Assembly: GCF_001310085.1 (NCBI RefSeq)
Contig: NZ_CP012643.1
Span: forward strand, 1,891,001-1,955,000
Source of the DNA: Rufibacter tibetensis
Lineage (GTDB): Bacteria; Bacteroidota; Bacteroidia; Cytophagales; Hymenobacteraceae
DNA length: 64,000 bases
Direction of reading: 5' to 3'
The notes under the pieces are model-generated. The model searched no databases, was not told the DNA's origin, and saw only the letters and a list, made by a program, of their open reading frames with translations. Positions 21,690 to 48,341 of this stretch are shown piece by piece (position 1 is the first letter of the stretch; every line of letters starts with the position of its first letter). A program made the position numbers and the translations under genes.

Positions 21690-21869
21690 GTAGTGGCTGG
21701 TTGATGCGAGGCTCTTATGCTTGGTTGTTTCATTTTCTGCGATAAGCGCTCATGGCCGCGAGGCCGCGTCTTCCCCTCTCGCACTGCCCTTTCGGCCTGA
21801 GCTGTCCATCTCTCTTAGCAACTGCTTTTCTATGGCCAAAAGCGAGGCGCTCGATGGGAAGACTGGAAC
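21690..21869 (+). repeat. Mosaic intergenic repeat, module A, copy 1
   Basis: A GC-rich element of about 180 bp. The 5' part contains GTTGATGCGAGG, TTGTTTCAT and GCGATAAGCGCTCA, then GGCCGCGAGGCC (21754-21765: a 4-bp stem with a GCGA tetraloop); the 3' part ends AGCGAGGCGCTCGATGG, AAGACTGGAAC. It aligns over its whole length to 48065-48245 and at both ends to the complement of 33408-33558. The remaining gap (21576-21689, 21870-22117) holds module C and the eamA promoter but no gene I can support. Confidence 0.85.
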
Positions 21870-21954
21870 TAGGGAAAGAGACAGAAGTGGATGGAAGAAC
21901 CCGTAGAGACCAGGCACTGCCTTGTCTCTTACACGCATTGCTTTCTCCCTCTCA

Positions 21955-21991
21955 GGGTACTCCCCTCCTCGGAGGGGTAGGGGTGGGTTCC
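21955..21991 (+). repeat. Mosaic repeat, module C, copy 1
   Basis: Hairpin CCCCTCC-TC-GGAGGGG (21962-21977) followed by TAGGGGTGGGTT. It resembles the reverse complement of 33266-33297 and lies about 90 bp downstream of module A, as in that copy. Confidence 0.55.
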
Positions 21992-22117
21992 GCCTACCAT
22001 TGCAATACCCGCTCTTTCAAAAGACCTCGTAGTGTCCGAAGGTCCTACGAGTGTCTGTGCCATTACCGTTTGAAACCCGTTTTAGACAAAACAGCACAAA
22101 AACGATTAGACATCCGC

Positions 22118-22125
22118 TATCTTTG
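22118..22125 (+). promoter_or_regulatory. -7 box (TATCTTTG) of the EamA transporter gene
   Basis: TAnnTTTG 24 bp before the GTG at 22150. It lies inside the longer open frame that begins at 22051, which argues for the later start. Confidence 0.55.
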
Positions 22126-22149
22126 CGCCTTCATTTTCGAGCTACTTCT

Positions 22150-23064
22150 GTGTCTACTCATACTACTTCCCCTACTGTTAACAATCCTGCTGCCTCTACT
22201 CCTGCGCTCGCGTGGGTGATTCTGATTGGCTTGGCGCTTATTTGGGGTACCTCGTTTATTCTGATCAAGAAAGGGCTGGAAGTATTTTCATCTGATGAGT
22301 TAGGAGCTATCCGGATATCGATTGCCACTCTGGCGCTGCTGCCTTTTGCTCTGAAAGGGTTTAAAGCACCCAAACCAGGGCAATGGAAGTTTCTGCTCTT
22401 GAGCGGATTGATTGGCAATCTGATACCAGCGTTTCTTTTCGCGTACGCTGAGACGAAGCTGGCAAGTGGTTTGGCAGGTGTACTGAACTCGTTGACGGCG
22501 TTGTTCACGCTCATTATTGGCGCCATCTTTTTTCAGCAGAAAATTACCCTCCTGCGGGTATTGGGTATCTTGATTGGAATAAGTGGAACGGCCGTTTTGA
22601 TCTTCTCAGGCATTGCGCAGGAGACCTCGTCTAACTCTTTCTACGGCTTGTACGTGGTGTTAGCCACGGTGCTGTACGGCGGAAGTTTGAATATCATCAA
22701 ACATTGTTTGGCGGGCATCAAGCCTCTGACCATGGCTAGCCTGGCTTTATTGACAGTGGGCCCTATTGCTTTTGCGTATCTCTGCACCACTCCTGCGCTG
22801 GACAAGTTGGCTACGCAGCCTGCAGCCTGGGAGGCTTTAGGCTATATCACCTTACTGGCTGTGTTCAGCACAGCAATAGGGCTGGTATTCTACAACAAGC
22901 TCATCCATATGACCAATACGCTTTTCGCGAGTACTTCTACCTACTTGATGCCTATTGTGGCCTTAATTTGGGGCGTGGCCGATGGAGAAACCATCCATTT
23001 GACGCACTACATAGGCATGGCGATTATTCTGGGAGGAGTTTTGCTAGTGAACAGAGCCAAATAA
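22150..23064 (+). CDS. EamA/DMT superfamily drug/metabolite exporter
   Basis: 304 aa from GTG 22150; the in-frame ATG at 22051 lies upstream of the -7 box and adds a charged, non-hydrophobic tail. Ten membrane segments in two EamA repeats of about 145 aa each: LIGLALIWGTSFILIKKGLE opens repeat 1 and YGLYVVLATVLYGGSLNIIK opens repeat 2; the AYAETKLASGLAGVL segment is typical of RhaT/YdcZ-like DMT members. The substrate is unknown. It ends 11 bp from a convergent small gene. Confidence 0.88.
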   Translation: MSTHTTSPTVNNPAASTPALAWVILIGLALIWGTSFILIKKGLEVFSSDELGAIRISIATLALLPFALKGFKAPKPGQWKFLLLSGLIGNLIPAFLFAYAETKLASGLAGVLNSLTALFTLIIGAIFFQQKITLLRVLGILIGISGTAVLIFSGIAQETSSNSFYGLYVVLATVLYGGSLNIIKHCLAGIKPLTMASLALLTVGPIAFAYLCTTPALDKLATQPAAWEALGYITLLAVFSTAIGLVFYNKLIHMTNTLFASTSTYLMPIVALIWGVADGETIHLTHYIGMAIILGGVLLVNRAK

Positions 23065-23075
23065 CTACGGGAAGA

Positions 23076-23513
23076 TTACCGATCGGCGCGGCTTTTCAGA
23101 AGCCAGGCAACAGCGTCCTGCTCAGACACAAAAACGCCTAATTTACTTTGCTCACTGAAGTTTTGGAGATAGTCAATCCCTATGCACTCTTTGATGTAGG
23201 AATAGTGGGAAGGGGTAACCAGGTTCGAAAAGTAGTTTTTATGCCCTAGCTCTTCTTCTACTTTAGGGAAAAAAGTCTGCAGCATCCAAGCTTCATCTTC
23301 TGGAGATAACTGCCCCCGGCTTCGCAGGTCAAACAGCCAATAGGCACTCTTTACTTCTTTGGCTAACTCAAATGCTAAAAGATATCCTTGGCGTAGCTGC
23401 TCAGAATCTGGAACGCGAAACCAACGTAGATACAAAATATCCAGATCCTTACGGTACTTCAGCTGCAGATTGCTTTCCAGTACCTCTCTAACTTCTCTCT
23501 CCACCAAGACCAT
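23076..23513 (-). CDS. Conserved small cytosolic protein, unknown (possible STAS-like fold)
   Basis: 145 aa with no signal peptide or membrane segment. The alternation of predicted strands and helices (ILYLRWFRV, LAKEVKSAYWLFDLRSRG, KLGVFVSEQDAVAWLL) recalls the STAS/SpoIIAA-like proteins often annotated in Cytophagales, but I see no diagnostic motif. Codon use and the tight convergent position beside eamA support a real gene. The function is unknown. Confidence 0.7.
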   Translation of the reverse strand: MVLVEREVREVLESNLQLKYRKDLDILYLRWFRVPDSEQLRQGYLLAFELAKEVKSAYWLFDLRSRGQLSPEDEAWMLQTFFPKVEEELGHKNYFSNLVTPSHYSYIKECIGIDYLQNFSEQSKLGVFVSEQDAVAWLLKSRADR

Positions 23514-23673
23514 AGCTTACCAAATACTTATAAAGTTTACAGGCGCACTTCTGCCCGCCTGCCTTAAGTACAGGTAAGTTACTACCAAAAGAAGAAAAAG
23601 TAAAATAATTTAAACCTTTTTTAATATTTACCGTAGTTGCGTCTCTCCCAAGTACGTGTTAGCACTTCAAATC

Positions 23674-25410
23674 CTATCTTTTTAAAGCCAACTTACTATG
23701 TTTAAAGCTGTAACCAAAGTAGATAGCTAAACCAATCAGCAGCCAAACCGTGAAAAGCAGCCAGTTATTCACCCCTAATTGGGTCATGAGATACAGATTG
23801 GTTAACAGCCCTAAGACCGGCAGAAGAGACAAATTCTTTCTGAAGGAAACCCAGGCCATCAAAACACAGGAAATCAGGAACACCAACATAGGAATCTGAT
23901 GGCGGAACTCCTCATAGCCTCCGTTTCCGGCTACAGCACCCCAAAATTCATCTATGGCTACGCGGTTATAGAGCATCACCAAAACACCGGAAATAATTAA
24001 AATCAACGGCACCAGAAACTTCCCATTCAGATAAGGCACCTTAAAACGAGCATCGGAAGTACCATGCGGGTCAATGATCAGAATACCACCACATACAAGG
24101 GCGAACGCAAAGAGGGTTCCAATACTAGTCAGGTCAATTACCAGGTCCATGTTCAGGAGCAAGGCAGGCACACCTACAAAAAACCCGGTTACCAGCGTAG
24201 AGAAAGAAGGAGTCCTGAAACGCGGGTGTACTCTGGAGAAAATAGGAGGCAATAACCCATCACGCGACATGGTCATCCAGATACGGGGTTGCCCAATCTG
24301 GAATACCAATAGAACCGAAGCCATCGCGAAGATCGCGCTCACTGCTACAATGCCGGCCAGCCAGTCTACGCCTACTTTCGTGAAAACGTACGCTAAAGGG
24401 TCACCTACCGCCAGCTCCTTGTACGACACCATTCCGTTTAATACCAGCGTGATGATTACATATAGAATGGTACAGATGATGAGCGCGTAAATCATAGCCC
24501 GGGGCAAGTCACGCTGCGGGTTCTTACATTCCTCAGCGGTGGTGCTAATGGCATCAAACCCAATATAGGCGAAGAATACCGCTGACACCCCTTTCAACAC
24601 CCCGCCTATTCCATTTGGGGCGAAAGGGCTCCAGTTGGCTGGATTCACGTAAAAAGCACCCACGGCTATCACTACCAGTACCACAATCATCTTCAACACC
24701 ACCAGCAGGTTAGAGGCGTTTTTAGACTCTTTTATACCAATGTACACCAAAGCAGTAATGACGGCATTGATCATGAACGCCGGCAAATCCACCACTAGTT
24801 TCCCGCCCAGAAAATCTGGGGCCGAAAGCCAGGTATTGTAAGCCTCCAACTGCACTGGATCTGCCGCCGAAAGTGGTTTTCCGGCTTGCAGGAGCGCCAA
24901 CACTTCACCGTACCCTTTGTGCGCACTCTGGGTACCCATAGTGAGCCAGACCGGAATGTCAAACCCTATGCCGCTCATGAGCCCTGTAAAGTAATCGCTC
25001 CAGGAAATAGCCACCACAATGTTTCCTACGGTGTATTCCATGATCAAGGCCCAGCCAATGATCCAAGCGGCCAATTCTCCGAAAGAGGTATAGGCGTACG
25101 TATAAGCCGAGCCGCTTACCGGAATAGTGGCAGCAAACTGGGCGTAGCACAACGCCGAAAATGCACACGCTATGGCCGTGAACACAAACAGCATAGACAC
25201 TGCCGGCCCTCCCTCGTAACTTGCGTTCCCGATGGTACTGAAAATACCGGCTCCAATAATGGCGGCTATTCCTAAGGAAGTTAAATCTCTGACCGTTAAA
25301 TTACGCTCTAACCCCTCATCTACTGACCCAACGTGGGCAGCCACATCAGCGGGCGGGGTATGCAAAATGGTGGTTAAACTCTTGCGGCGAAAAAGACTTT
25401 TTAGACTCAC
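23674..25410 (-). CDS. Amino acid permease, APC superfamily (cationic amino-acid transporter-like)
   Basis: 578 aa using the GTG at 25410; the open frame continues upstream to 25704 but that part is antisense to the next gene and not hydrophobic. Twelve or more membrane segments. Signature segments: [16 protein letters not shown] (TM1, substrate-binding unwound region), [19 protein letters not shown] (TM3) and [20 protein letters not shown] (TM6). The long insert near residues 165-205 before a hydrophobic segment is typical of YfnA/CAT-type permeases. It is probably a cation-coupled amino-acid importer; the substrate is not predictable. Confidence 0.88.
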
Positions 25411-25503
25411 TTGTTCTGTTCTATATAGAAATTCAGGGTAAAAGTTAAGGAAAATATTCTGAATGCTCCGAGCCCTACGTATATTTAGACAAACCTCCGC
25501 CAC

Positions 25504-26250
25504 ATGCCTACCCGCCGCCTCACCGTTTCTGTGCCCCAGCCTTGCCCTGAAGACTGGACCGCCATGACGCCTCAGCATCAGGGCCGTTTCTGCCAAAACT
25601 GCTCTAAAACAGTGGTGGATTTTACAAGGATGTCTGGTGCAGAAGTAGTGGATTGGTTGACGAAACAAAAGGCCGGCACATGTGGTCGGTTTAGCCAAAA
25701 GCAATTAGGAAGAGAGTTTGTATCTGTCTCGGCCTCAAAGAGCCGGTGGACATGGAAGGCAGCTATTTTCGGATTAGCCGTTTTGTTAAGTCCAAAAAAT
25801 GCAGATGGAAGGTATAAGGTTGATTCTTTGGTTGAACAGCAAGTTAAACCTTGGGGAGAAGAACTGTCAATTTATGGCTTTGATTTAACTTCATTAAAAG
25901 ATAGTACTTTAACTATTACTGGTAAAGTACTAGATGGGAATACCAAAGCTCCTGTGAGTGGTGCTGCTGTGGTTCTTAAAGGCACCACTCTTGGCGCACC
26001 TGTTGACGCAAAAGGCACTTTCTCCTTACAAATTCCTAGCTCTATATCACTAGAAAGAGCAACCGTTGTCTTTTCTTACATTGGCTATGTAGCTCAGGAA
26101 ATACAGCTTAACCATTTTTTAAATAGCCCTAATGCAACTGTGCTCTTACCCATTGACAACACGCCTCTGATGGGAGAAGTACATATAATCAAAAGCAAAT
26201 GGTACTCTCCCCGAAGCTTTTACTACAAAGCACGAAACCTCTTCCGCTAA
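25504..26250 (+). CDS. Membrane protein with N-terminal Cys motif and carboxypeptidase-regulatory-like domain
   Basis: 248 aa. Residues 10-70 hold a conserved Cys-rich domain ([18 protein letters not shown], CxxC at [12 protein letters not shown], then AGTCGRF) seen at the N-terminus of a Bacteroidota family. One hydrophobic segment ([11 protein letters not shown], about 87-97) follows, then a CarboxypepD_reg-like domain ([45 protein letters not shown]). The predicted topology has the Cys domain inside and the beta-sandwich in the periplasm. The four Cys could bind zinc or act in redox; this is inference. Later codons are A/T richer than in neighbouring genes. Confidence 0.78.
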
Positions 26251-26292
26251 CTTCGTTTTAGCTTCTTTTCCAAGAATCAGCCTCTAAAAACC

Positions 26293-27480
26293 TTACCTGT
26301 TCAACACCACCCTAAACGTAGTACCCTTCCCTACCTCAGAGGATTTTACATAAAGCCGTCCCTGGTGGTAGTTCTCAATGATGCGTTTCGCCAATGCAAG
26401 CCCTAAACCCCAACCGCGTTTTTTGGTGGTATAACCGGGCACGAATACTTCTTCCTGCTTTGTTTTAGGAATACCTTTGCCTGTGTCCTGAATGTCCAGC
26501 GCAATGGCGCCTTTGGTATTGGACTTCACCAGCCGAAGCGTGATACTGCCCTTGCCTTCCATGGCGTCAACAGCGTTTTTACAGATGTTCTCAATCACCC
26601 ATTCAAAAAGCGGGATATTTACCTTGGCCGTGGTCTCTGGCGGAAATTCGGTTTCTATGTTAATGGCCACTTTGCTGGAAACCCGGTTGCGCAGGTACCC
26701 AATGGCATTGTCCACCACCTGTAGGAGTGGCTCATCCTTGAGCACCGGCACCGAGCCTATGTTGGAGAAACGCTCAGTGATAATTTCCAGCCGTTTTACG
26801 TCTTTGCCCAGCTCGTCAATAATGGGTTCGTTCTCAAACTTGGGGCTTCCCTTCAGGTACTCGTACCAGGCCATGAGCGAAGAGAGCGGCGTGCCTAACT
26901 GGTGCGCGGTTTCTTTGGCCAGACCTACCCACACGCGGTTCTGCTCGGCTTTGCGCGAGTAGCTGAAGGCATAATAGGCGATAACTGAAAGGCAGGCAAT
27001 AACCGTGAGTTGCACGTACGGGTAGTAGCGTAGTTGAGTAAGCAGCTCAGAATCTTTGTAGAAAATATAGTTTTTGAACTCCTGCTGGTAAGACACCTCA
27101 ATGGGTTTGTGCTGGGCTTTCATCTTGGCTATTTCCCGCTGTAAAAGCCTTTTTTTGCGCTTTTCTGAAATCTTTTCGGGTATATCAAGGTTCTTATAAG
27201 CGATGACGTTCTCGTTTTCGTCGGTCTGTATCACCGGTACTGAGCGGTTCGCGTCAATGATTTCTTCCTGAATAAACACCAGGTTGTCTGAGTCAATTTC
27301 AGCATTGATCATATAGCGTAAGCCTTTGGCGTACAGGTCAATCAGTTGTTGCTCGCGCTCAGACAGCTTAGCCACTAACACGTTTGTGTAAATCACAGTA
27401 GCTGCCCCAATGAACAAGGCAACCGCAATGATCAAGAGCTTTAACCTGGATTTCTTAGAATAAATGGAGGTTGGGATCAT
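26293..27480 (-). CDS. Membrane sensor histidine kinase
   Basis: 395 aa from the ATG at 27480 (a TTG 12 bp upstream is the alternative). Two membrane segments (about 11-34 and 160-178) enclose a periplasmic region of about 125 aa without a recognised sensor domain. HisKA H-box: AKETAHQLGTPLSSLMAW with the phosphorylated His; then the N box ENICKNAVDAM, G1 DTGKGIPK, and G2 GWGLGLALAKRII. No response regulator lies beside it, so it is an orphan kinase in this window. AHQLGTPLS in place of the usual HELRTPL marks a group common in Bacteroidota. Confidence 0.88.
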   Translation of the reverse strand: MIPTSIYSKKSRLKLLIIAVALFIGAATVIYTNVLVAKLSEREQQLIDLYAKGLRYMINAEIDSDNLVFIQEEIIDANRSVPVIQTDENENVIAYKNLDIPEKISEKRKKRLLQREIAKMKAQHKPIEVSYQQEFKNYIFYKDSELLTQLRYYPYVQLTVIACLSVIAYYAFSYSRKAEQNRVWVGLAKETAHQLGTPLSSLMAWYEYLKGSPKFENEPIIDELGKDVKRLEIITERFSNIGSVPVLKDEPLLQVVDNAIGYLRNRVSSKVAINIETEFPPETTAKVNIPLFEWVIENICKNAVDAMEGKGSITLRLVKSNTKGAIALDIQDTGKGIPKTKQEEVFVPGYTTKKRGWGLGLALAKRIIENYHQGRLYVKSSEVGKGTTFRVVLNR

Positions 27481-27632
27481 GTACAAAGGCAACGCTAGAA
27501 CAGATACGCCCGTCTTGGGATTGTGTTCTCCCTAAACGAAGATAGCAGAAGAAGCGTCTGTTCGCCGCAATTTGTAATGAGTATAAATAAAAGAAAGATA
27601 CGAAAGTAATTCATTCTTAAAAGATCGCGCCG

Positions 27633-27640
27633 TAATTTTG
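27633..27640 (+). promoter_or_regulatory. -7 box (TAATTTTG) of hemA
   Basis: It directly abuts the first in-frame ATG at 27642, so that codon would lie upstream of or at the transcript start; it therefore supports the ATG at 27663. Confidence 0.55.
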
Positions 27641-27662
27641 CATGCTATTTCAAAACTGCCGT

Positions 27663-28937
27663 ATGCTTCACAACTTTAGAGCCGTCAGTCTTTCATATAA
27701 AAAAGCTCCCTTAGACATAAGAGAGCTTATCGCCTTGGATGAGGGGTCGTGCCGACAGTTCCTGCAAACGCTCAAAAATTTCATTCAGGCAACTGACATT
27801 TTAGTGCTTTCCACGTGCAACCGCACGGAGGTTTATTATACTTCTGATGATGACTACAGCCACGAAATCGTGAAACTGTTGGGCATCAGCAAAGGCATTT
27901 CCAATATTTCCCAGTATCTGGACTATTTCACCATTGTGAACGAGCATTCAGATGCTGTTCAGCACCTGTTCAACGTGGCCATGGGCCTTGATGCGCAGGT
28001 GGTGGGTGACATGCAGATCTCCAACCAGGTAAAACAAGCCTACCAGTGGAGTGTGGACAACGAGGCTGCCGGACCGTTCCTGCACCGCCTGCTGCACACC
28101 ATTTTCTTTACTAATAAGCGCGTAGTACAGGAGACCTCGTTCCGTGACGGAGCTGCCTCTACGTCTTATGCCGCGTTGGAACTAGTAGAAAGCTTAACTG
28201 CTGACATCACTAACCCTAAAGTATTGGTGGTGGGCTTGGGCGAGATTGGTGCCGATGTGTGCCGTCATCTGTCTGACTCAGATTTCCAGAACGTAAAGAT
28301 TTCTAACCGCACCAAAGCCAAAGCCGAAATTCTGGCAGAGGAGTGTGGCCTGGAAGTAGTTCCGTTTGAGAACCTAGTAGAAGCCATGAAGGAGGCCGAT
28401 GTGATTATCTCCTCCGTGGCCCGCGACGAGCCGTTCTTCACCAAAGAAATGGTGAGTCGCCTGAACGTGCTTACGTATAAATTCTTCATTGACCTGAGCG
28501 TGCCGCGCAGCGTTGAGCCGCAGGTAGAGCAGATTCCGGGAGTGTTGGTGTACAACATTGATACCATCCAGAACAAAGCCTCTGAAGCCCTGCAGCGCCG
28601 CTTAGATGCCGTGCCGCAGGTAAAGCAGATCATCAAGGAATCCATTGCCGGATTTGAGGACTGGAGCAAGGAGATGAACGTGTCGCCTACCATCCAGAAA
28701 CTGAAAAACGCGCTGGAAACCATCCGTCAGGAAGAGATGGCCCGTTATATGAAGAAGCTCACCCCAGAGGAAGCCAAACACATGGATGACGTGACCAAGT
28801 CCATGATGCAGAAGATCATCAAGCTTCCGGTACTGCAACTCAAGGCCGCCTGTAAACGCGGTGAAGCCGAAACCCTGATTGACGTACTTACTGATTTGTT
28901 CGATCTTGAGAAGCAGTCTTCTGAGGCGCACGCCTAA
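27663..28937 (+). CDS. hemA: Glutamyl-tRNA reductase
   Basis: 424 aa from the ATG at 27663, chosen over 27642 because of the -7 box position and the conserved start LHNFRAVSLSYKKAP. It reduces glutamyl-tRNA(Glu) to glutamate-1-semialdehyde with NADPH, the first committed step of C5 tetrapyrrole synthesis. The catalytic Cys is in LSTCNRTEVYY; the NADPH domain has VVGLGEIGADVCRHL; the C-terminal dimerisation helices are complete. hemL, hemB and hemC are not nearby. Confidence 0.95.
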   Translation: MLHNFRAVSLSYKKAPLDIRELIALDEGSCRQFLQTLKNFIQATDILVLSTCNRTEVYYTSDDDYSHEIVKLLGISKGISNISQYLDYFTIVNEHSDAVQHLFNVAMGLDAQVVGDMQISNQVKQAYQWSVDNEAAGPFLHRLLHTIFFTNKRVVQETSFRDGAASTSYAALELVESLTADITNPKVLVVGLGEIGADVCRHLSDSDFQNVKISNRTKAKAEILAEECGLEVVPFENLVEAMKEADVIISSVARDEPFFTKEMVSRLNVLTYKFFIDLSVPRSVEPQVEQIPGVLVYNIDTIQNKASEALQRRLDAVPQVKQIIKESIAGFEDWSKEMNVSPTIQKLKNALETIRQEEMARYMKKLTPEEAKHMDDVTKSMMQKIIKLPVLQLKAACKRGEAETLIDVLTDLFDLEKQSSEAHA

Positions 28938-28965
28938 TTAAGTTTTTATTATTTCACCCATATTG

Positions 28966-28995
28966 AGCGGGGCATTCTTTATAGAGTGTCCCGCT
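28966..28995 (+). terminator. Terminator of hemA
   Basis: AGCGGG / CCCGCT stem followed by TTTCGTTT, 29 bp past the hemA stop and just upstream of the next start at 29014. Confidence 0.7.
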
Positions 28996-29013
28996 TTCGT
29001 TTATATTGGCTTT

Positions 29014-29967
29014 ATGAAAAAGCTGCTTTTCTCCCTCACTGCTGCCCTTCTCTCCTTCTCCGGTTTTGCCCAGGTAAATTGGGTCCCATCTGCGCAACAC
29101 CAGGAAGGGCTACCCACCTCTGTCAAAGTGTTCATTACCTCAGACTCTCTGGACGGGAAACCGGTTAGAGCCTATTATCTGGAAGCTGACCTAAAAGACC
29201 TCAAACTAGAGGTGCTCACCAGAGTAGGCAACGGCAAGCGCTACACCCCGCAGCAATATTATGAGAAAGAAGCAGGCAACGTACTGGCGGTGGTCAACAC
29301 CACATTCTTTTCCTTCGCTGACAACAGCAATTTGAATTTGATCATCAATGACGGTAAAGTGCTGGCGCCGCAAGCTTCTGTGAAACGCAAGAACCCAAAA
29401 GGAACAGATACGCTCACCTATCATCCTACCACCGGCGCCATCGGGTTCTTCCGCAACCGCACCGTAGATGTGGCTTGGGCCTACAACGTGGGCAAAAGGA
29501 AGAAGACCATGGAACTGGCGGCACCCTATGACTCTGATATGAATGGCCAACCTGCTCCTGAGCCTTCCAAACGCACGGTTAAAAGGATCAAACGCTGGAA
29601 GCCAGAAGTTGCAGTGGGCGGCGGCCCGGTATTGGTGCAAGATGGCAAGGTACACATCACCGCTGAGGAAGAAATGCGTGGCGGTGCCGGATTCAGAGGT
29701 CCGCACCCACGTACGGCGATGGGCTACAAGCCAAATAACAAATTCATCATCCTGATGGTGGAAGGCCGCAACAAAGGCATCGCCGAAGGTGCCAGCTTAG
29801 ATCAGTTGGCAAAGCTGATGGTAGAGTTAGGCTGCAAAGAAGCCCTAAACCTGGATGGTGGCGGATCCAGTGCGCTTTACGTGAAAGGCAAAGACACTAT
29901 TAAGCCCTCTGACAAGGAAGGTCAACGCCCAGTGCCTGCGGTGTTAGTGTTGAAGTATAAAGAGTAA
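29014..29967 (+). CDS. Exported phosphodiester glycosidase family protein (NAGPA/DUF2233)
   Basis: 317 aa from the ATG at 29014, which begins a clear signal peptide (MKKLLFSLTAALLSFSGFAQ); an earlier frame start at 28963 lies inside the hemA terminator. The NAGPA-like catalytic fold shows NTTFFSF, GGGPVLVQDGKVH, RTAMGYKPNNKFIILMVEGR and LDGGGSSALYVKG, including the conserved Asp in LDGG. Mammalian NAGPA removes GlcNAc from phosphodiesters; bacterial members may trim cell-wall or exopolysaccharide phosphodiesters. It is periplasmic. Confidence 0.88.
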   Translation: MKKLLFSLTAALLSFSGFAQVNWVPSAQHQEGLPTSVKVFITSDSLDGKPVRAYYLEADLKDLKLEVLTRVGNGKRYTPQQYYEKEAGNVLAVVNTTFFSFADNSNLNLIINDGKVLAPQASVKRKNPKGTDTLTYHPTTGAIGFFRNRTVDVAWAYNVGKRKKTMELAAPYDSDMNGQPAPEPSKRTVKRIKRWKPEVAVGGGPVLVQDGKVHITAEEEMRGGAGFRGPHPRTAMGYKPNNKFIILMVEGRNKGIAEGASLDQLAKLMVELGCKEALNLDGGGSSALYVKGKDTIKPSDKEGQRPVPAVLVLKYKE

Positions 29968-30027
29968 TTTACGTTCCGTTTCTAGACGTTTTAAGAGAAA
30001 ACAAGTTAGAAGCAGAGCTTTGTTTTT

Positions 30028-30705
30028 CTAGAGTAATCGTTGTAGCAGATTATCCCGGAAGGCAGATGAAACAGGGATAGCTTTGCCACCTAGGGTTACT
30101 TGATGCCGCTCTATTTTCTCAATTTTATCCATGGCTACTAAATAAGAACGATGCACTTTTACAAAGCGATTGCCGGGAAGTTTCTCTTGGGCTTCAGACA
30201 GGGTCATGCGGGATAAGATACGTCGCTGAGGTTCATGGAACGTGAGGTAATTATCATCAGCTTCTATGTAAAGTAGTTGCCTTAGATTAACTCGTTCCCA
30301 GTCATAGCTCACCTTAACAAATAAGAATTCAGGAGCCTCATTCTCTACTCCTTTTTGCTTCCATTCCTGGGCTCGGGTACACGCTTGCAGGAAGCGCGGA
30401 AAAGTTATAGGCTTCAGTAGATAATCAGTAACTGCCAGCTCAAAGCCCTGCAAGGCGTACTCAGAAAAAGCAGTGGTAGAAATGATGCTGGCCTGCTTGC
30501 CTATGAGCTTTGCCACTTCCACTCCGGTTATATCTGGCATTTTGATATCCAGGAAAACCAAATCTATAGGCCGCTGTTGCAGGTACGCCAAGGCCTCTGT
30601 TGCGCTAACATATGTTGCTTCCAGTTTTAGAAACGGCACTTTTTGAGCATGAGCTTTGATTACGCTCAAGGCAATGGGCTCATCATCTATGGCAATACAC
30701 CGCAT
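30028..30705 (-). CDS. LytTR-type response regulator
   Basis: 225 aa. REC domain residues 1-120 with IDDEP (acidic pocket), phospho-acceptor Asp in LVFLDIKMPDITG, STTAFSEYA (Thr) and YLLKPI (Lys). LytTR DNA-binding domain residues 130-225: YIEADDNYLTFHE, FVKVHRSYLVAMDKIEKIE. The partner is almost certainly the LytS-like kinase at 30939-32006 on the same strand. The 233-bp spacer between them is long for such a pair and suggests a separate promoter for the regulator. Confidence 0.92.
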   Translation of the reverse strand: MRCIAIDDEPIALSVIKAHAQKVPFLKLEATYVSATEALAYLQQRPIDLVFLDIKMPDITGVEVAKLIGKQASIISTTAFSEYALQGFELAVTDYLLKPITFPRFLQACTRAQEWKQKGVENEAPEFLFVKVSYDWERVNLRQLLYIEADDNYLTFHEPQRRILSRMTLSEAQEKLPGNRFVKVHRSYLVAMDKIEKIERHQVTLGGKAIPVSSAFRDNLLQRLL

Positions 30706-30938
30706 GAGGTTAGTATAAGGTAAAGGCTAAAACGGCTTTTCTATCTGTTTGTGAAAGATTACCTTGCAGGAAGGTCGCGCACCATGGGTGGTGATCAACT
30801 CTTGGCAATAACTTACCCAACTGTTCACCAAAAAGCGCTTGACTGTTAACTCATAAAATGGAAAGGTTTCTTACTAGATTTGCTCTGAGTTGTCACTATG
30901 TTCAAAAGCATAGTTCAAAAATAAGTAGGAAAGACAAC

Positions 30939-32006: not shown

Positions 32007-32126
32007 TGCTAATTGCGTTATTTGAACCAAAGCAAGAAAACTTCTCTAACCACTGCAACTAAATGGGGTGAAGCTCAGGGGGAAAGTGGTGAAACAATCA
32101 AAAAGGTGACCAAAGGGCAAAATAAA

Positions 32127-32170: not shown

Positions 32171-32214
32171 CCGGGGAGTACTTACTTGATGGGGGAACTA
32201 GGCAAGCAGGAATG

Positions 32215-33260: not shown

Positions 33261-33265
33261 AAACA

Positions 33266-33297
33266 TCCACCTACGCTCCCTTCAAAGGGAGAATACC
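33266..33297 (-). repeat. Mosaic repeat, module C, copy in the 33-kb element
   Basis: Hairpin CTCCCTTCAAAGGGAG at 33276-33291, followed on the minus strand by GTAGGTGGATGTT; the counterpart of 21955-21991. Confidence 0.5.
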
Positions 33298-33324
33298 AGC
33301 TATCGTGTTTGAGGTTATTACCTC

Positions 33325-33377
33325 ACTGCAGTTGCAAACTGCAGTCATTGTGAGTCCAAGTCGCAGACTTGAACCAT
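33325..33377 (-). repeat. Mosaic repeat, module B (twin hairpins), copy 1
   Basis: On the minus strand: ATGGTTCAAGTC, loop TGC, GACTTGG, then CTGCAGTT, loop TGC, AACTGCAG. Hairpins at 33357-33371 and 33326-33344. It matches 48288-48341 with compensated differences in the stem. Confidence 0.85.
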
Positions 33378-33407
33378 ATATTCTTTCAGAAAGCAAAGCC
33401 TACGCCT

Positions 33408-33558
33408 ATCCGTTTCCAGCCTTTCGTCTGAGCGCCTAGGACTCGACCCGGTGCCGCGTTAGCGGCAGCCCTAAGGGGCAGGCGAGAGGCCACAGCGCGA
33501 GGGCGGAAGGCGGGGCCTCGCGGCCGTGAGCGCTTATCGCCAAAGATGAAACAATCAA
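33408..33558 (-). repeat. Mosaic intergenic repeat, module A, copy 3 (diverged middle)
   Basis: On the minus strand it begins TTGTTTCATC then GGCGATAAGCGCTCACGG, with GGCCGCGAGGCC (33514-33525), and ends GGCGCTC and GCTGGAAACGG. Both ends match the copies at 21690 and 48065, while the middle (about 33430-33490) is unrelated and GC-rich with several small hairpins. Confidence 0.75.
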
Positions 33559-34984: not shown

Positions 34985-35046
34985 AAACGCCTTTGCCGTT
35001 TTGCCCTTGGTTTATAGAAAGCAAGAGTAAAACGGCAAAGGCGTTT
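34985..35046. terminator. Bidirectional palindromic terminator between convergent genes
   Basis: Perfect 18-bp arms AAACGCCTTTGCCGTTTT / AAAACGGCAAAGGCGTTT around CTTGGTTTATAGAAAGCAAG, followed by ATTTTTTAG; it serves both the dehydrogenase and the small lipoprotein gene. Confidence 0.88.
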
Positions 35047-39299: not shown

Positions 39300-39341
39300 G
39301 GTGTTCTAAGTCCATTTTCAAGAAACCAGCTCTAAAACACC
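39300..39341 (-). terminator. Degenerate palindromic element after the AsmA-like gene
   Basis: GGTGTT..TAAG / CT..AACACC arms with a TTTTCAAGAAACCAG centre, 17 bp past the stop; a weak member of the palindrome family. Confidence 0.4.
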
Positions 39342-39357
39342 AAACCCGTTCTCAACC

Positions 39358-41868
39358 TTAAAAATCAAAAAATACAGTAGAGGGCTTTACGGTTTTCGCT
39401 TCTTTTTTTTCTGGGCTCTTGCCCTGGAAGATTTCTTTGATGACTTTCTTCTCTCGCCTTAGGTCAGCGGCAACTTTCTGCCTTACCCTCTGCTGGTCAT
39501 ACGCCACTTTGAAGTTACCCTCCTTGCCTTTGATGGTGAGGAAAAGGTTTGGATTGCCCGTAGAACTGGTGGCGATTACCCCAAAGCGCGCGTCTTTGTC
39601 AGGGCGCTGGCTTTTGAGGGGAAGGCGCACGTGGTAGTCCATTACCTGGTCAAATGTGTGCGTGCCTGAGACTGTAATAGAAGACAGGCGGGTGGCACTG
39701 GACCTGATCTCCATCTCGGGAATGTAGACAATGCGGTTCCGGATGTAGAAGTTGTTTCTGATCTCAGAAAACCGAAGGTTAGACAACTCATTGCGTTTCA
39801 CGAACAGGCTGAGTTTCTGCATAGGGGCAAAGTCCAGGAGTTGTCCGTTCCGGAGGATGGTTTTGATCTCGGCCCGCACCAGATCAGTACGTGGCGACAG
39901 GTTATGATCCAGATAGGTATCTGAATTAATCTGGGCGGTTAGCTCTCCGCGCAGGTGACGCTGCATGATAAAGGTCTGCCCAAAATCCTCAAACACATAG
40001 AAAAGGCTGTCTACGTTGATGTTGTCCAAATTAGCGATGGAGGTTACCTTGATCAAGGGCCTGCGGGCATCCATGCTGCCCCTTATTCTGAAACTTCCAC
40101 CAGCGGCTTGCAAGGCCATTCCGGATGTGGAAAGCACCTTGTCTTTAAGTTGGATGCGCCCATGCAACTGCCTGCCTTTAAACCGCCGGAACTTCAGCCT
40201 GTTTAAGGAGGTATTGAGCTCCAGCTCCAGCTGTGCCGGCATGTTGAAAGCGTATGAACCAGCACTTCCTTTCTTGCCGGGAGTTCTTGCTGCTTTGCCT
40301 GAAGAGGCGGCCAACACCTGGTCAATATTCAGGAAACGGGAAGAAACATCGGCCTCTATTCTGAGTTTCTGCCCTCTAAATAATATCCAGGCCAAGGCAT
40401 TCTTAAACTGCCCGCTTACCAGAATGTCAGTGTCTCCCATCTGTCCCTTAAAATTAGAAACTGAAACATTGTTTTTGTTGAGCAGAAGGGTGCCATTGAG
40501 GCCAGTGAACGTCATAGGGTGCTGCCGAAAGAGCAAACTCACTTGCCGCAGGGTAGCGTCTCCGTGGGCTTGAATGGCAGGACTGTTAGGGTTTGTCTTG
40601 AAAGTGTGCAGATTCCCGGAGAAGGCAAACCTTACCTGGGCCTGCCCGCTTCCCTTTTTAAGGTCTTTTGAAGGAAACAGCCCTAAAACATGGGCCAGGT
40701 CTACCTGGGCATTGAGCTGGAGCTGCAAATTAGGATTAGAGAAGTTCTTATAAACTACCTCTCCGTTAAAAGGTTTCCCGTGCAAAGTGCCTTTAATGTT
40801 GCGCAACTCCAGCAGCGACGTCTGGCTGTTCCGCTGCGCCCCGTTAGTAAAGCGCCCCACCAAAGTTACTTTCTCTACTTTCCCTTTATAGTCTGGGTGG
40901 TACAACGATGCTCCCCGGGCCCCGAACTCAACATCCAGGAACGGGTTCTTTGAAGAGGACATTTCCCCTTTTACCTTGCCTTTGAAATAGATGTCCCCAT
41001 TGCTCCGGTATTGGCCCAACCGATCAGAATAGCGCGGGGGAAGCAAAGCCAGAATAGACTGCACGTCGGTGTTTTTGCCGTTTACGGTAAGGTCCAGCTG
41101 CATTTTATTTGTATACCCAATCTCGCCACCCAGCTGGTACACCGCCTTTCCAATCTGAACCTCAGAAGGCTGTAAGGCGATGAGATGCTGCCCGGTATGT
41201 ATGCTTAGTTTACTGGCTACCGTTATAGCTTTCTCACGCAGGAATTCATTCTCCCCTATTCTGATGGTTTTGATGTGGGTGTTTCCGTTGGCTTTGAGTT
41301 GCAGCACCTGCCCTTCCATTTCCAGGGCCGCAGTAAACTCGTGCGCCTGTACGTCATATTTCTGCCGCCTGGGTGCGTCCTGGTACACAACGTGCACATT
41401 CTTGAGGCTGATGTGCTGCAGGTCAAACCCCATGGTCTCGTTCTGGATTGTGTCTGCGCTTTGGTAAAAACGGTAGTTGACTTTCCCGTTGGGCAACACC
41501 CTGGCCTGCACTTCCCCATCTTCTAAATGGATTTCCCTGATGCGGTAGGTGCTGCGCCATAGATCCCAAGGATGGAAGGTGGCATAAACCTTTTTCAGTT
41601 TTGCCAGTGGCGCCTTGCTGCCAGGCACCGCTTCGGTTACCTCTACATTCTGCAACCTAATGGCCACCTCCGGAAATTGCTCCCACCACGTCACTTCTAT
41701 CTTCTCTACCGCTACCTTGGTTTTGATGTGCTGATTGGCTTCAGCCACAAAAAGCCCGATGATTTTATCTTGATAAACGTACAGCAACCCTCCGGCCAAG
41801 GCCATGATCAAAAAAATTCCGGCTACCGCGAAAAAAAAATATTTTACCAACTTTTTCTTACTTCCCAC
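39358..41868 (-). CDS. AsmA-like outer-membrane biogenesis protein
   Basis: 836 aa. One N-terminal membrane anchor (FFFAVAGIFLIMALAGGLLYVY, about residues 11-32) followed by a very long periplasmic beta-rich part: AsmA N-terminal segment (VAVEKIEVTWWEQFPEVAIRLQNVEV, IREIHLEDGEVQ) and an AsmA-like C-terminal region (SNLRFSEIRNNFYIRNRIVYIPEMEIRSSA). Proteins of this class (AsmA, TamB, YhdP) are bridge-like lipid transporters between inner and outer membrane. A lipid-transport role is family knowledge. Confidence 0.86.
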   Translation of the reverse strand: MGSKKKLVKYFFFAVAGIFLIMALAGGLLYVYQDKIIGLFVAEANQHIKTKVAVEKIEVTWWEQFPEVAIRLQNVEVTEAVPGSKAPLAKLKKVYATFHPWDLWRSTYRIREIHLEDGEVQARVLPNGKVNYRFYQSADTIQNETMGFDLQHISLKNVHVVYQDAPRRQKYDVQAHEFTAALEMEGQVLQLKANGNTHIKTIRIGENEFLREKAITVASKLSIHTGQHLIALQPSEVQIGKAVYQLGGEIGYTNKMQLDLTVNGKNTDVQSILALLPPRYSDRLGQYRSNGDIYFKGKVKGEMSSSKNPFLDVEFGARGASLYHPDYKGKVEKVTLVGRFTNGAQRNSQTSLLELRNIKGTLHGKPFNGEVVYKNFSNPNLQLQLNAQVDLAHVLGLFPSKDLKKGSGQAQVRFAFSGNLHTFKTNPNSPAIQAHGDATLRQVSLLFRQHPMTFTGLNGTLLLNKNNVSVSNFKGQMGDTDILVSGQFKNALAWILFRGQKLRIEADVSSRFLNIDQVLAASSGKAARTPGKKGSAGSYAFNMPAQLELELNTSLNRLKFRRFKGRQLHGRIQLKDKVLSTSGMALQAAGGSFRIRGSMDARRPLIKVTSIANLDNINVDSLFYVFEDFGQTFIMQRHLRGELTAQINSDTYLDHNLSPRTDLVRAEIKTILRNGQLLDFAPMQKLSLFVKRNELSNLRFSEIRNNFYIRNRIVYIPEMEIRSSATRLSSITVSGTHTFDQVMDYHVRLPLKSQRPDKDARFGVIATSSTGNPNLFLTIKGKEGNFKVAYDQQRVRQKVAADLRREKKVIKEIFQGKSPEKKEAKTVKPSTVFFDF

Positions 41869-41967
41869 AAACTTTCTGATTTCCAGGCTTTAAATATACA
41901 GCTCTCCCGGAAGGCCTCCAATGATTAAACGGTTTTGCATAAATTTTAAATATTTTTCGAAAATGCA

Positions 41968-41999
41968 TTTGGTAGATAAAAAAACATCCCCCATATTTG
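41968..41999 (+). promoter_or_regulatory. Promoter of tRNA-Val
   Basis: -33 TTTG at 41968-41971 and -7 CATATTTG at 41992-41999 with a 20-bp spacer, 40 bp before the tRNA. Confidence 0.6.
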
Positions 42000-42039
42000 C
42001 ATCATCAAACGGGGACAAAAGGTCAACGGAAAACAAAAA

Positions 42040-42114
42040 GGGATGTTAGCTCAGCTGGTTCAGAGCATCTGCCTTACAAGCAGAGGGTCGCTGGTTCGAA
42101 TCCAGCACGTCCCA
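42040..42114 (+). tRNA. tRNA-Val (anticodon UAC)
   Basis: 75-nt cloverleaf. The acceptor stem GGGATGT pairs with ACGTCCC (one G-T pair), then discriminator A. The D arm is in TTAGCTCAGCTGGTTCAGAGC, the anticodon stem TCTGC/GCAGA encloses loop CTTACAA (anticodon TAC), the variable loop is GGGTC-like, and the T loop is GGTTCGAATCC. The 3' CCA is not encoded; the genomic sequence after the discriminator is CTTCTT. Confidence 0.97.
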
Positions 42115-42121
42115 CTTCTTA

Positions 42122-42150
42122 AAAGCCTCACTTCACAGTGAGGCTTTTTT
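42122..42150 (+). terminator. Terminator of tRNA-Val
   Basis: AAAGCCTCACT / AGTGAGGCTTT stem ending in TTTTTT, 8 bp after the tRNA. Confidence 0.9.
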
Positions 42151-42396
42151 GTTTTACAGGCACTTTGCAAATAATGGGCTTTTCATCCTTGAACCTGTTA
42201 CCCTTGTTCCTTAGGGATACTACTTCTCTTCAGTACTAAGTTTCTAAAGTCCTTCAGGAGCCAAGTATTAAAAGATTTCTTTTATGCTCTGATATGTATT
42301 AACACTTCTAGTTCTTTTCCTTTCTAGCTGCTCCTTTGTAGCTGGATTAAGCGAAACCGTAGAATCAAGACTTGAAGAGTCATCTTCTAAAAGAAA

Positions 42397-42432
42397 CCGC
42401 CCCAGACTTTCAACAAGCGGAATCTGGGGCGG
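42397..42432 (-). terminator. Rho-independent terminator of the GH2 beta-galactosidase
   Basis: 10-bp stem CCGCCCCAGA / TCTGGGGCGG followed on the minus strand by TTTCTTTT, 6 bp past the stop. The rest of the gap (42151-42396) shows no gene. Confidence 0.9.
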
Positions 42433-42437
42433 CTTGC

Positions 42438-45629
<3,192 letters not shown>

Positions 45630-45764
45630 TCAATATCCTGTTGCTCTCTATTAAAGAGCCTCTTGTGGTGCAAAATGGACAGAATCTACCTAAATTACTT
45701 TAACCGGGCTCAGCAAGCATTTACCCAAAGAAGAGATGATTACCTCTAACACTCTGTTTTAAGC

Positions 45765-46061
45765 CTATTTTACCAAAAGATCCAGTGTTTGGGGAGTTAA
45801 CCCGGGAGACAGGATGGTTTCCTTAACTTTGCCGGGTTCCTGGGTGGCCTGGAGGTAGGCTAGCGGTTTCCCATGCAGCACTTTCCGTTTCTCAGATTTA
45901 TAGTTCTCATGACTGGTATGGCTTCCGTTCTCCATCCCAATCAGCTGGGCAGGTCCTTCTACGGTAACCGTCATTTCATTATCAGCGCCGTACACCAGGT
46001 TGCCGTTTTTGTCTACCACGTTTATCTCCACATGGGCTACTCCTTTTCTGAGAGTAGCTCC
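45765..46061 (-). pseudogene. Remnant of a second GH2 glycosidase (C-terminal domain only)
   Basis: The readable frame (HVEINVVDKNGNLVYGADNE, TVTVEGPAQLIGMENGS, ENYKSEKRKVLHGK, then EPGKVKETILSPGL) is the C-terminal beta-sandwich (Glyco_hydro2_C5-like) of DUF4982-type GH2 enzymes. The homologous frame can be followed upstream only to about 46061, where the conserved sequence stops. There is no proper start, signal peptide or catalytic barrel. I read it as the decayed 3' end of a second GH2 gene, of a different subtype from the intact beta-galactosidase 170 bp downstream. Confidence 0.72.
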
Positions 46062-46227
46062 TAAAGATAGAAAGATGCATAAATTGTTTGCGGCTTCTTT
46101 TCAGAAACCAGTCCCTAAACACGTCTGCAAAGGACTTGCCCTACCTTGCTCCGGTATGGGCAAGTATTCTCTTCTGCATCACGGTTTTCTATCGTACTTA
46201 GTACTCGCAATTACTTCTTGTGATATC

Positions 46228-46266
46228 CAGTTTGTAAGGTGTTTTCTAAAAACAACTTACAAACTG
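46228..46266. repeat. 39-nt near-perfect palindrome in the decayed region
   Basis: CAGTTTGTAAG-G-TGTTTT, loop CTA, AAAACA-A-CTTACAAACTG: an 18-bp stem with one mismatch, and the same TTTTCT/AAAA centre as the 3'-end palindromes. No gene ends beside it; the surrounding 46062-46524 holds no supported gene. Confidence 0.75.
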
Positions 46267-46524
46267 TTGCTACCCTAGGGTTCTTTGCCGTTACACTCTC
46301 AGCTTCTCTGGACAGGGTAGCTTTCTTCTATTCTTGTGTCAGCCTTACTTGTTTCAGCCTTAGTTCCCACCTTATCTCTCACCCCCTAAGGATCCATTTA
46401 GACAGTGGTAAATCCATGTTTTGGTACAAACCTGAATCTGCTTTTTGCGTTGTACCTCATACTCGTTGCCTTACTAAGCCGGCAGGGAGTATTCACTTGC
46501 ATTGAAAAACCGAGGACTACTACC

Positions 46525-46722
46525 GTGAAAGAAGACACTTACCTTTTGTTGAACCAAGGCTGGCAATCTAGCTTTAAACCCATCTACTTCCTGGGCTTTG
46601 ATATATCCTGGCTGGTCATGGAAGAAGCATTCATCAGCCCGTTTGATCATAGAAAGTACTCTTTCAATGAGGCCATGCGCATAGCTCTCAACTCACAGGC
46701 AAATCACGAATGGGCCGCTTAG
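46525..46722 (+). CDS. Possible small protein, unknown
   Basis: 65 aa from GTG 46525 (the frame is open upstream to 46405). The sequence has globular-looking segments (GWQSSFKPIYFLGFDISWLVMEE written as overlapping Trp/Phe-rich helices, then FNEAMRIALNSQA). I see no strong ribosome-binding site and no known family; it may be a real small gene or a remnant in the same decayed region as the GH2 fragment. Confidence 0.35.
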   Translation: MKEDTYLLLNQGWQSSFKPIYFLGFDISWLVMEEAFISPFDHRKYSFNEAMRIALNSQANHEWAA

Positions 46723-46766
46723 GCTAACAGAAATGGGCGTCGCTATGGTGCTTCAAGGCATTTGCG

Positions 46767-46774
46767 TAGTTTTG
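46767..46774 (+). promoter_or_regulatory. -7 box (TAGTTTTG) of the acyltransferase-like gene
   Basis: TAnnTTTG 22 bp before the ATG at 46797. Confidence 0.45.
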
Positions 46775-46796
46775 CCTTTCTAAGCTCTATCCTTTT

Positions 46797-47963
46797 ATGC
46801 ACTTACTTGAAGTTAAAGACGCGGCTACAGTCAAAGCTTTTCTAGATCTTCCGTCCACTATCTACCAAGACCATCCCAACTGGATCCGTCCACTTGATAA
46901 GGACATTGAGCAGGTTTTTAATCCGAAGCAGAACCCTAACTTCAGAAATGGCGCGGTCATCCGGTGGATTCTGCAGGACCACAAAGGAAAAACTATCGGT
47001 CGGGTAGCTGCTTTTGTGAACAACAAGACTAAGAATGCTTCTGAATATGTGACTGGCGGCATGGGCTTCTTTGAATGCACCAATGACCAGGCTGCTGCCA
47101 ATACTTTGTTTGATGCCTGCAAGAACTGGCTTTATGCTCAAGGCATGGAAGCCATGGATGGGCCTATCAATTTTGGGGAGCGGGACAAGTGGTGGGGACT
47201 GTTGGTGCAGGGCTTCACAGAACCCAATTACGGTATGTTCTACCATGCTCCGTATTACCAGAAGCTGTTTGAAAACTATGGCTTTCAGGTGTATTTCAAG
47301 CAGTACACGTTCTACCAGGATACCCACGTACAATTCAGCCAAAAGATCATACAGCGCTCCAAAGCCTTGGAGGAGACCCCGGGTTACAGTTTTGGGCATC
47401 CTTCTAAAAACAACCTCGAAAAACTGGCGCAAGACTTTCTGGAGGTATACAACAAAGCATGGGCCGGGCACTCGGGCATTAATGAGATGACCTTTGAGAA
47501 GGCCTTGAAGATGGTGAAGAGCATGAAGCCTGTCATGGTGGAAGAGTTGATCAGCTTTGTGTACTTTGAAGGCAAACCCATTGCCTTTTTCATCATGCTG
47601 CCAGAACTGAACCAGATTTTCAAGCACCTCAACGGCAAGTTTGACCTTCCTGCTAAGTTGAAGTTTCTTTATCACCGCTGGCGGTACAACCAACGCACAG
47701 ATAAGAAGGTGTTCGGGGTAATTTTTGGTGTGGTTCCGGAATTCCAGTCCAAAGGGGTGGACTCTTATATGATCGTGCATGCCCAAGGTCCGTTGAATGC
47801 TTATGGAGCGAGAGAGATAGAGATGAACTGGGTGGGGGATTTTAACCCGAAGATGATGTTAGTGACGCGGGGCTTGGAGGCGCGTATCTACAAAACGCAC
47901 ATCACTTATCGGAAGATCTTTGATCCTTCAAAGCCTTTTACCCGCTACCCTATAATTAAGTAG
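46797..47963 (+). CDS. GNAT-fold acyltransferase-like protein, unknown substrate
   Basis: 388 aa cytosolic. N-terminal half: FRNGAVIRWILQDHKGKTIGR and GGMGFFECTNDQAAANTLFDA match the first strands and acyl-CoA region of GNAT proteins; the segment YAQGMEAMDGPINFG and YHAPYYQKLFENYGF are characteristic of a conserved Bacteroidota/Proteobacteria family of about 380 aa. C-terminal half: VVPEFQSKGVDSYMIVHA and EMNWVGDFNPKMMLVTRGLEARIYKTHITYRK resemble a second GNAT fold. The donor and acceptor are unknown. Confidence 0.8.
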   Translation: MHLLEVKDAATVKAFLDLPSTIYQDHPNWIRPLDKDIEQVFNPKQNPNFRNGAVIRWILQDHKGKTIGRVAAFVNNKTKNASEYVTGGMGFFECTNDQAAANTLFDACKNWLYAQGMEAMDGPINFGERDKWWGLLVQGFTEPNYGMFYHAPYYQKLFENYGFQVYFKQYTFYQDTHVQFSQKIIQRSKALEETPGYSFGHPSKNNLEKLAQDFLEVYNKAWAGHSGINEMTFEKALKMVKSMKPVMVEELISFVYFEGKPIAFFIMLPELNQIFKHLNGKFDLPAKLKFLYHRWRYNQRTDKKVFGVIFGVVPEFQSKGVDSYMIVHAQGPLNAYGAREIEMNWVGDFNPKMMLVTRGLEARIYKTHITYRKIFDPSKPFTRYPIIK

Positions 47964-47971
47964 AGATCATG

Positions 47972-48006
47972 GTTTAAGGCTGCTTTTTGTAAAACAGCCT
48001 TAAAAC
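47972..48006 (+). terminator. Palindromic 3'-end element after the acyltransferase-like gene
   Basis: GTTTAAGGCTG / CAGCCTTAAAAC arms with CTTTTTGTAAAA centre, 8 bp past the stop; member of the palindrome family. Confidence 0.7.
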
Positions 48007-48064
48007 TTATTAGCTTCTGTTAGTAGAGGCTGGCGTGGTTGTGCACGTCTTTTGCCGTGGCTGG

Positions 48065-48245
48065 CGAGGTTGGCGGTTGATGCGAGGCCCTTATGCTGGG
48101 TTGTTTCATCTCCGGTGATATGCGCTCACGTCCGCGAGGCCTCGTCTTCCCCTCTCGCACTGCCCTTTCGGCCTGAGCTGCCTGTTCCTTTTAGCTTCTA
48201 CCTATCTATGGCCAAAAGCGAGGCGCTCGATGGAAAGACTGGAAC
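48065..48245 (+). repeat. Mosaic intergenic repeat, module A, copy 2
   Basis: Aligns from end to end with 21690-21869: GTTGATGCGAGG, TTGTTTCAT, GCGCTCA, CCGCGAGGCC, then a stretch CTCTCGCACTGCCCTTTCGG that is identical in both, and the shared end AGCGAGGCGCTCGATGG, AAGACTGGAAC. It lies between convergent genes in a 486-bp gap that otherwise holds module B and a 3'-end palindrome. Confidence 0.88.
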
Positions 48246-48287
48246 AGGGGAATGTAACAAAGGCTGTTTTCCTCTTAACCCTTTTAC

Positions 48288-48341
48288 ATGGTTCAAGTCT
48301 GTGACTTGGACCTACCATGACCTGAAGTTTGCAACTTCAGT
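48288..48341 (+). repeat. Mosaic repeat, module B (twin hairpins), copy 2
   Basis: CAAGTC-TGT-GACTTG at 48294-48308 and CTGAAGTT-TGC-AACTTCAG at 48322-48340. The spacing and the linking sequence match the minus-strand copy at 33325-33377. Confidence 0.85.

Follow-up and report, generated by a model that had tools for sequence, protein, structure and literature searches.

The 64,000-nucleotide (nt) stretch of the Rufibacter tibetensis genome examined here, referred to as the window (contig NZ_CP012643.1 of assembly GCF_001310085.1; C1:1891001-1955000 in a scan of 5,408,451 bases on three contigs), carries three copies of an intergenic repeat, module A, together with adjoining palindromes. By the simple open reading frame calling used for all gene contexts, the copies at 21.7, 33.5 and 48.1 kb lie in tandem, divergent and convergent gaps, respectively, and their neighbour genes differ; the three kinds of context had been correctly noted in an original prediction made from the sequence, which described a mosaic repeat family of modules A, B and C. 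We consider it reasonably probable that module A is instead a dispersed family of structured RNAs that occupies common sites in different species and whose cores are homogenised within each genome, with conversion as the putative process and a putative role in cis. The features of the three copies, and the evidence for each, are as follows.

21665..21735, minus strand: leader of copy 1, the 3' side of the RNA, starting with GTGCATGC on the plus strand (alignment; left limit by eye)
21736..21871, minus strand: predicted RNA core of copy 1, subfamily A1, with P1 hairpin and GGCC pseudoknot (genome matches, alignment, folding)
21903..21929, plus strand: GTAG-type palindrome GTAGAGACCAGGC..GCCTTGTCTCT on the RNA's 5' side (sequence reading; GTAG class of repetitive extragenic palindromic (REP) sequences according to PMC3733652)
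21958..21989, plus strand: CCCCTCCTCGGAGGGG palindrome, formerly module C of copy 1 (sequence reading; without a match elsewhere in the search with the right-hand stretch)
22022..22056, plus strand: palindrome GACCTCGTAG..CTACGAGTGTC, recurrent in the genome (genome search with the stretch right of copy 1)
33261..33293, minus strand: CCCTTTGAAGGG palindrome, formerly module C of copy 2 (sequence reading)
33300..33382, minus strand: module B of copy 2, a REP-type double hairpin by resemblance (genome matches; comparison with loci of REP-associated tyrosine transposases, RAYTs)
33411..33543, plus strand: predicted RNA core of copy 2, subfamily A2, with branched tip (genome matches; covariance model 116.6 bits)
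48041..48111, minus strand: leader of copy 3, the 3' side of the RNA (alignment; left limit by eye)
48112..48247, minus strand: predicted RNA core of copy 3, subfamily A1 (genome matches, alignment; covariance model 113.8 bits)
48285..48358, plus strand: module B of copy 3, a REP-type double hairpin by resemblance (genome matches, RAYT-locus comparison)

Window positions 21657-21883 and 48033-48259 are 81% identical across 227 nt. Both of these copies have, in inverted form, a 68-nt arm in common with the copy at 33.5 kb (85% and 82% identity), and a 37-nt arm of module B links the 33.5 and 48 kb copies at 86% identity. Far from being confined to the window, as the prediction had allowed they might be, the repeats recur throughout the genome: the A query gave at least 38 matches and the 33.5 kb (A2) query at least 40, both lower bounds, with 40 of 42 and 40 of 50 candidates scored. 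Merged by position, with one 45-nt partial match left out, these amount to at least 43 copies of module A in 5.41 Mb, comprising 32 of subfamily A1, 10 of A2 and one divergent copy. Module B, which was likewise correctly recognised, has 35 matches, 30 of them within 500 nt of an A copy. The 33.5 kb copy does keep both ends of A around a different middle, and genome-wide this form makes up the second subfamily. A shared module C, by contrast, is not supported, because the 136 nt right of copy 1 match, besides themselves, nine other places, and all nine only via query positions 67-136, which are mostly another palindrome. To the right of copy 1 stand a GTAG-type palindrome, a CCTCC/GGAGG palindrome and the third, recurrent one; the CCTTTGAAGG stretch at the 33.3 kb copy resembles these in type and is at most a candidate for the same repeat. 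The proposed mosaic is more aptly described as a single RNA element (A) adjoined by palindromic repeats of several families, and searches of the genome recovered A and B but no common C. Two other identities for A were rejected, namely coding sequence, given single-base insertions and deletions between copies and called open frames over 14/43 copies only, and plasmid or phage cargo, as the A1 query found no match in plasmid and phage collections. The one viral contig that has the 20-mer carries it inside a frame whose product, read by eye, resembles a DNA methyltransferase.

Contigs of relatives contributed at least 120 matching stretches, from which 80 loci were kept, giving 78 copies, 75 with a readable right arm; with 41 of the 43 own copies these form a set of 116 cores, 74 of them non-redundant, of which 53 were aligned almost gap-free in the outer arms. 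The predicted P1 hairpin has a CAG base with a bulged A, 10-11 pairs, a second block of four pairs and a subfamily-specific tip, and is followed by a GGCC-loop-GGCC hairpin whose loop pairs with the subsequent GAGxGC tail to form a pseudoknot. Three adjacent P1 pairs flip between C-G and G-C among the 53 cores (40 CG/11 GC, 27 CG/21 GC and 22 CG/15 GC), and alignment cells in which both sides of a pair change number 58 compared with 22.6 in shuffles (0/500 as high). A 38-member alignment was made to the first covariance model described below and so leans to that model, though its outer arms are nearly ungapped; here 19/26 pairs show both-side changes, in 121 cells compared with 39.2 when shuffled (0/500 as high). 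Among 34 copies chosen for diversity, 96.9% of 646 cells are paired on the reverse strand, compared with 40-57% for slid partners. The count of pairs with both-side changes does not rise above shuffles in the 53-core set (295/500) or the 34-copy set (323/500); in the same sets, the cells with both-side changes and the score do (0/500). The helices display compensatory changes beyond both shuffled and slid controls, as a structured RNA should. The loop/tail pairs of the pseudoknot read CGC/GCG, CCC/GGG, CUC/GAG and GCC/GGC or GCCC/GGGC, with exceptions that include L407 and L403; across the 38 members the middle pair is GC in 24, CG in 5, UA in 4, unpaired in 1 and gapped in 4, and the outer pair fails in 7.

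The molecule under selection is most likely RNA read from the strand complementary to the one given in the prediction, because folding stability, G-U pairing, wobbles and GNRA loops all favour the reverse strand. The reverse complement folds more stably in 112/116 copies (mean folding z of -2.34 compared with -0.84 forward, 29 sampled), and a conserved P1 mismatch reads there as a G-U pair. In the 38-member set, the wobbles at the chosen pairs are 57 G-U against 3 A-C. One hairpin type has 11 tip loops of four bases, of which four fit GNRA when read on the reverse strand and none when read on the forward. The idea of an RNA-structured repeat family is thus strongly supported, yet on the other strand and with a pseudoknot that had not been described.

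Module A is present in species of Rufibacter, Pontibacter and Sabulibacter. A first covariance model, run on 213 genomes drawn from the order with up to 15 candidates scored per genome, found members in 11, including R. tibetensis itself; five further genomes of the family have 10-15 matches each among those listed, and five from other families (G046, G198, G206, G054 and G088) have one copy each among the matches listed. A second model, run on 395 genomes drawn from the class with up to eight candidates scored in each, returned, from the candidates scored, three copies for G054 and a single one for G046, and, in other families of the class, five matches of 22-26 bits (G291, G380, G560, G605 and G610) that are doubtful because their alignments span mainly the arms or pair poorly. 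Searches of Rfam release 15 gave nothing at E up to 0.5 for 11 representative loci, and over the window only a tRNA reached its gathering score; a known Rfam RNA was rejected, one match to BSnc120 reaching 26 bits where the gathering score is 114.

In G046, G198 and G206, three genomes of one other family, the one listed copy (L388, L389 and L391) immediately precedes the same Gfo/Idh-type gene, a class read by eye from the protein, and is on that gene's strand; these copies are possibly a cis-regulatory ancestor. In G054, from a third family, the three RNA copies (L387, L419 and L421) have differing P1 stems and different neighbour genes. The Gfo/Idh-type leaders and the conserved pseudoknot would suit a cis-acting leader or attenuator, riboswitch-like or protein-binding, that controls the adjacent gene and was copied to many genes. 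This explanation strikes us as very unlikely, given that the own copies are distributed over 20/43 convergent, 20/43 tandem and only 3/43 divergent gaps and that neighbours differ among the three copies both in the window and in G054.

At the 48.1 kb site, A is found in 10/16 genus genomes, in one with an internal deletion, and its type varies by species; this survey and that of the 21.7 kb site were made by eye over 560 nt after the left gene, the next gene being further off or different in some genomes. Own and foreign copies with common flanking genes form 24 pairs in the same orientation and none in opposite orientation, involving 18/43 own copies, with the gene on an inconsistent side in four further pairs. 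When every species is included, 33 pairs agree in orientation and 2 do not; the own genome takes part in 22 of the 33, which largely repeat the 24. The ortholog is nearer than the best own paralog in 0/24 pairs. In 0/33 pairs does it surpass the best paralogs of both species, and in 2/33 that of at least one, with a mean identity over the 33 pairs of 69.5% for orthologs and 91.3% for paralogs. In both of these overlapping sets, paralogs are therefore closer than orthologs at conserved positions. Judged by sequence comparison, copies at common sites do undergo concerted evolution within genomes.

The structured core of approximately 130 nt looks like the exchanged unit, because similar cores stand between dissimilar leaders and right sides. 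In the 14 most similar own core pairs the cores are 95-98% identical, while the leaders are 58-79% and the right sides 49-81% identical; the 21.7 kb copy, for instance, shares 96% of its core, 58% of its leader and 49% of its right side with another copy. In the alignment, a 16-nt stretch in the left arm of copy 14 is complementary to its right arm, and the same holds in part for copy 32, which may be taken as a sign of hairpin-templated copying. Core-limited transfer, the signs of RNA-level selection and a 3'-side pseudoknot that fits an RNA template would also accord with an RNA-copied element, a bacterial analogue of short interspersed nuclear elements (SINEs), in which reverse-transcribed cDNA overwrites existing copies (retro-conversion). 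The same observations are accounted for by gene conversion at the DNA level, and we regard retro-conversion as highly doubtful. A broader SINE-like scheme, in which an RNA with one to three listed copies in some other families of the order became interspersed in Hymenobacteraceae and its copies are rewritten in place by RNA-templated or hairpin exchange, the arms providing the addresses and the tips being interchangeable cassettes, appears quite unlikely to us.

In the reading that we favour, a dispersed structured RNA with homogenised cores, the cores would be replaced by gene conversion or by hairpin-mediated template exchange via the conserved arms. The RNA may act in cis in transcribed 3' regions of neighbour genes, on RNA stability or 3'-end formation, and the GTAG and similar palindromes would represent further REP-type elements gathered on its 5' side. 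Shared copies between species sit mostly behind gene ends. Their distances to the neighbour genes are conserved slightly beyond chance, and the right-gene distance is correlated between them (Spearman 0.39, p 0.04; median difference 110 nt compared with 183 by chance).

A number of observations weigh against this reading. The left-gene distance is not significantly correlated (Spearman 0.32, p 0.08; median difference 37 nt compared with 61 by chance). The left gene starts towards A in 12/43 copies, and in 14/43 the gene next to the RNA's 5' end runs in the other direction, so that a role in the 3' untranslated region is not possible for every copy, and the listed copy in G046, G198 and G206 is a 5' leader rather than a 3' region. 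The 21.7 kb site has A in only 3/16 genus genomes, so that gain or loss is frequent. The ortholog is nearer than the median own paralog in 11/24 pairs, mainly A2 copies in an A1-dominated genome. In the own genome taken by itself covariation is weak, with 1/26 covarying pairs for A1 and 6/44 for A2, the latter on a partly different fold. In a strand-blind count of opposing columns, reverse-strand wobbles lead by only 89 to 57, 48 of the 57 forward-type wobbles falling in one helix-end pair. Promoters and terminators were sought only by eye and no conserved one was seen; the transcript of the cores is a predicted one, and gene conversion is a putative homogenising process.

The surroundings of the copies bring in a further explanation. 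Other palindromes are represented by motifs, in some cases loose ones, within 260 nt to the right of 107/121 copies and to the left of 12/121, an asymmetry due in part to the usual closeness of the left neighbour gene. Module A might be mobile DNA like REPINs or miniature inverted-repeat transposable elements, moved by a RAYT or other transposase that recognises a folded single strand; its species-specific versions would then reflect fresh insertion waves into favoured intergenic sites in a preferred orientation. To this richness in REP-type and other palindromes may be added the fully paired P1 arms of some copies, the modest cross-species distance correlations and a bias of A's plus strand to the lagging side in 29/43 copies, a weak figure counted by hand with two copies in an uncertain switch interval. 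The sampled GC skew of C1 changes sign in the interval 2.06-2.16 Mb and again around 4.6 Mb. A search with model NF001154, taken to be dnaA, gave one match below its cut-off, which was left out of account.

Comparison with 41 RAYT loci, for which the 40 fetched RAYT stretches are part of all RAYT search matches, separated modules A and B. The exact module A motif GCGCTCACGGCCGC was found in 0/41 loci, and A1 and A2 rose above 492 dinucleotide shuffles in 0/41. The 60 mononucleotide shuffles, which these replaced as the module B control, were judged too weak because A2 exceeded them in 7/41 loci (A1 in 1/41). The two module B queries exceeded all 492 dinucleotide shuffles in 3/41 (L168, L196 and L191) and 2/41 (L201 and L168) loci, respectively, which come from genus and family relatives, and the alignments take in the spacer; most RAYT loci show no such resemblance. 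That module B is a RAYT-type REP doublet is thus supported by resemblance, a point that also favours mobility. Module A has one long P1, a branched or long tip and a pseudoknot, not two short inverted REPs of 20-40 nt around a spacer.

The own genome has a single match to a Y1 transposase, RAYT-like, at L091 1255-1800 (C1:187026 region), flanked by GCTGGCGCGAGC..GCTCGTGTCCGCACG palindromes that are found behind A copies 15 and 19 as well. No cognate RAYT for module B was found in the own genome, the sole Y1 transposase match having another palindrome, and A as the REP of this resident RAYT was rejected on the same grounds. Separately, the palindrome CTCGTAGTGTCC..CTACGAGTGTC, at window 22022-22056 and elsewhere, also matches near RAYT loci L177, L187 and L193. 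With the only Y1 transposase found standing beside a different palindrome, A absent from the RAYT loci, orientation at common sites conserved by 33 to 2, and wobbles and folding that favour one strand as for an RNA, we consider mobile DNA an unlikely, though not negligible, account of module A. The predicted non-autonomous mobility is plausible in itself, yet neither a clean empty site nor a linked transposase was found, and shared sites, shared orientation and homogenised cores speak against it; the proposed search for target duplications met orthologous sites without A that are too diverged for the junction to be read by eye.

The usual explanation of short interspersed repeats in bacteria is that they are REP/RAYT elements or insertion sequences in decay, and gene conversion of REPs was reportedly raised by Higgins and co-workers in 1988. 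Another modular class of intergenic repeat with conserved ends and a variable middle is that of the BOX elements (boxA-boxB-boxC); they share this description with module A, whose middle differs in being a set of alternative hairpin tips on one stem. REP/REPIN repeats, as presented in PMC3116915, PMC8049555 and PMC3733652, are short palindromes, many of them tied to RAYT genes. Like these and the bacterial interspersed mosaic elements (BIMEs) of the same sources, the A family is intergenic, palindromic, present in tens of copies or more and vertically persistent; module B shares their double-hairpin form and is similar to repeats close to RAYT genes. A differs from REP/REPIN repeats so described in its length of about 130 nt, its long P1, its variable tip and its pseudoknot, and it was not detected at RAYT loci; moreover, it has strand-specific wobbles that point to RNA, and it is represented at orthologous sites by species-specific versions. 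The greater likeness of paralogs than orthologs recalls the concerted evolution of rRNA operons by gene conversion (PMC6002687, PMC8022953), but the units here are dispersed intergenic hairpins of about 130 nt and not kilobase operons. With Rfam bacterial RNAs, A shares conserved secondary structure, compensatory changes and a loop-tail pseudoknot, yet it gave no Rfam match at the thresholds used. The view that the family had not been described holds for Rfam and the open literature searched, subscription papers and preprints lying outside that scope.

Module A therefore appears to be a dispersed repeat under RNA-level selection that keeps its positions across species and yet is homogenised in each genome, and it adds a pseudoknotted RNA family unmatched by Rfam release 15. 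It makes testable, in cultivable bacteria, whether and by what mechanism dispersed intergenic repeats evolve in concert.

Two minor observations may be recorded. L414 (G380) has short hairpins at 859-922 and 1501-1562, each followed by GGCC-loop-GGCC and with tail-loop pairing possible at 1501-1562, which are possibly a miniature relative of the module A RNA. Within the window, perfect or near-perfect inverted repeats at 16380-16444, 1472-1517 and 34985-35046 are probably terminators.

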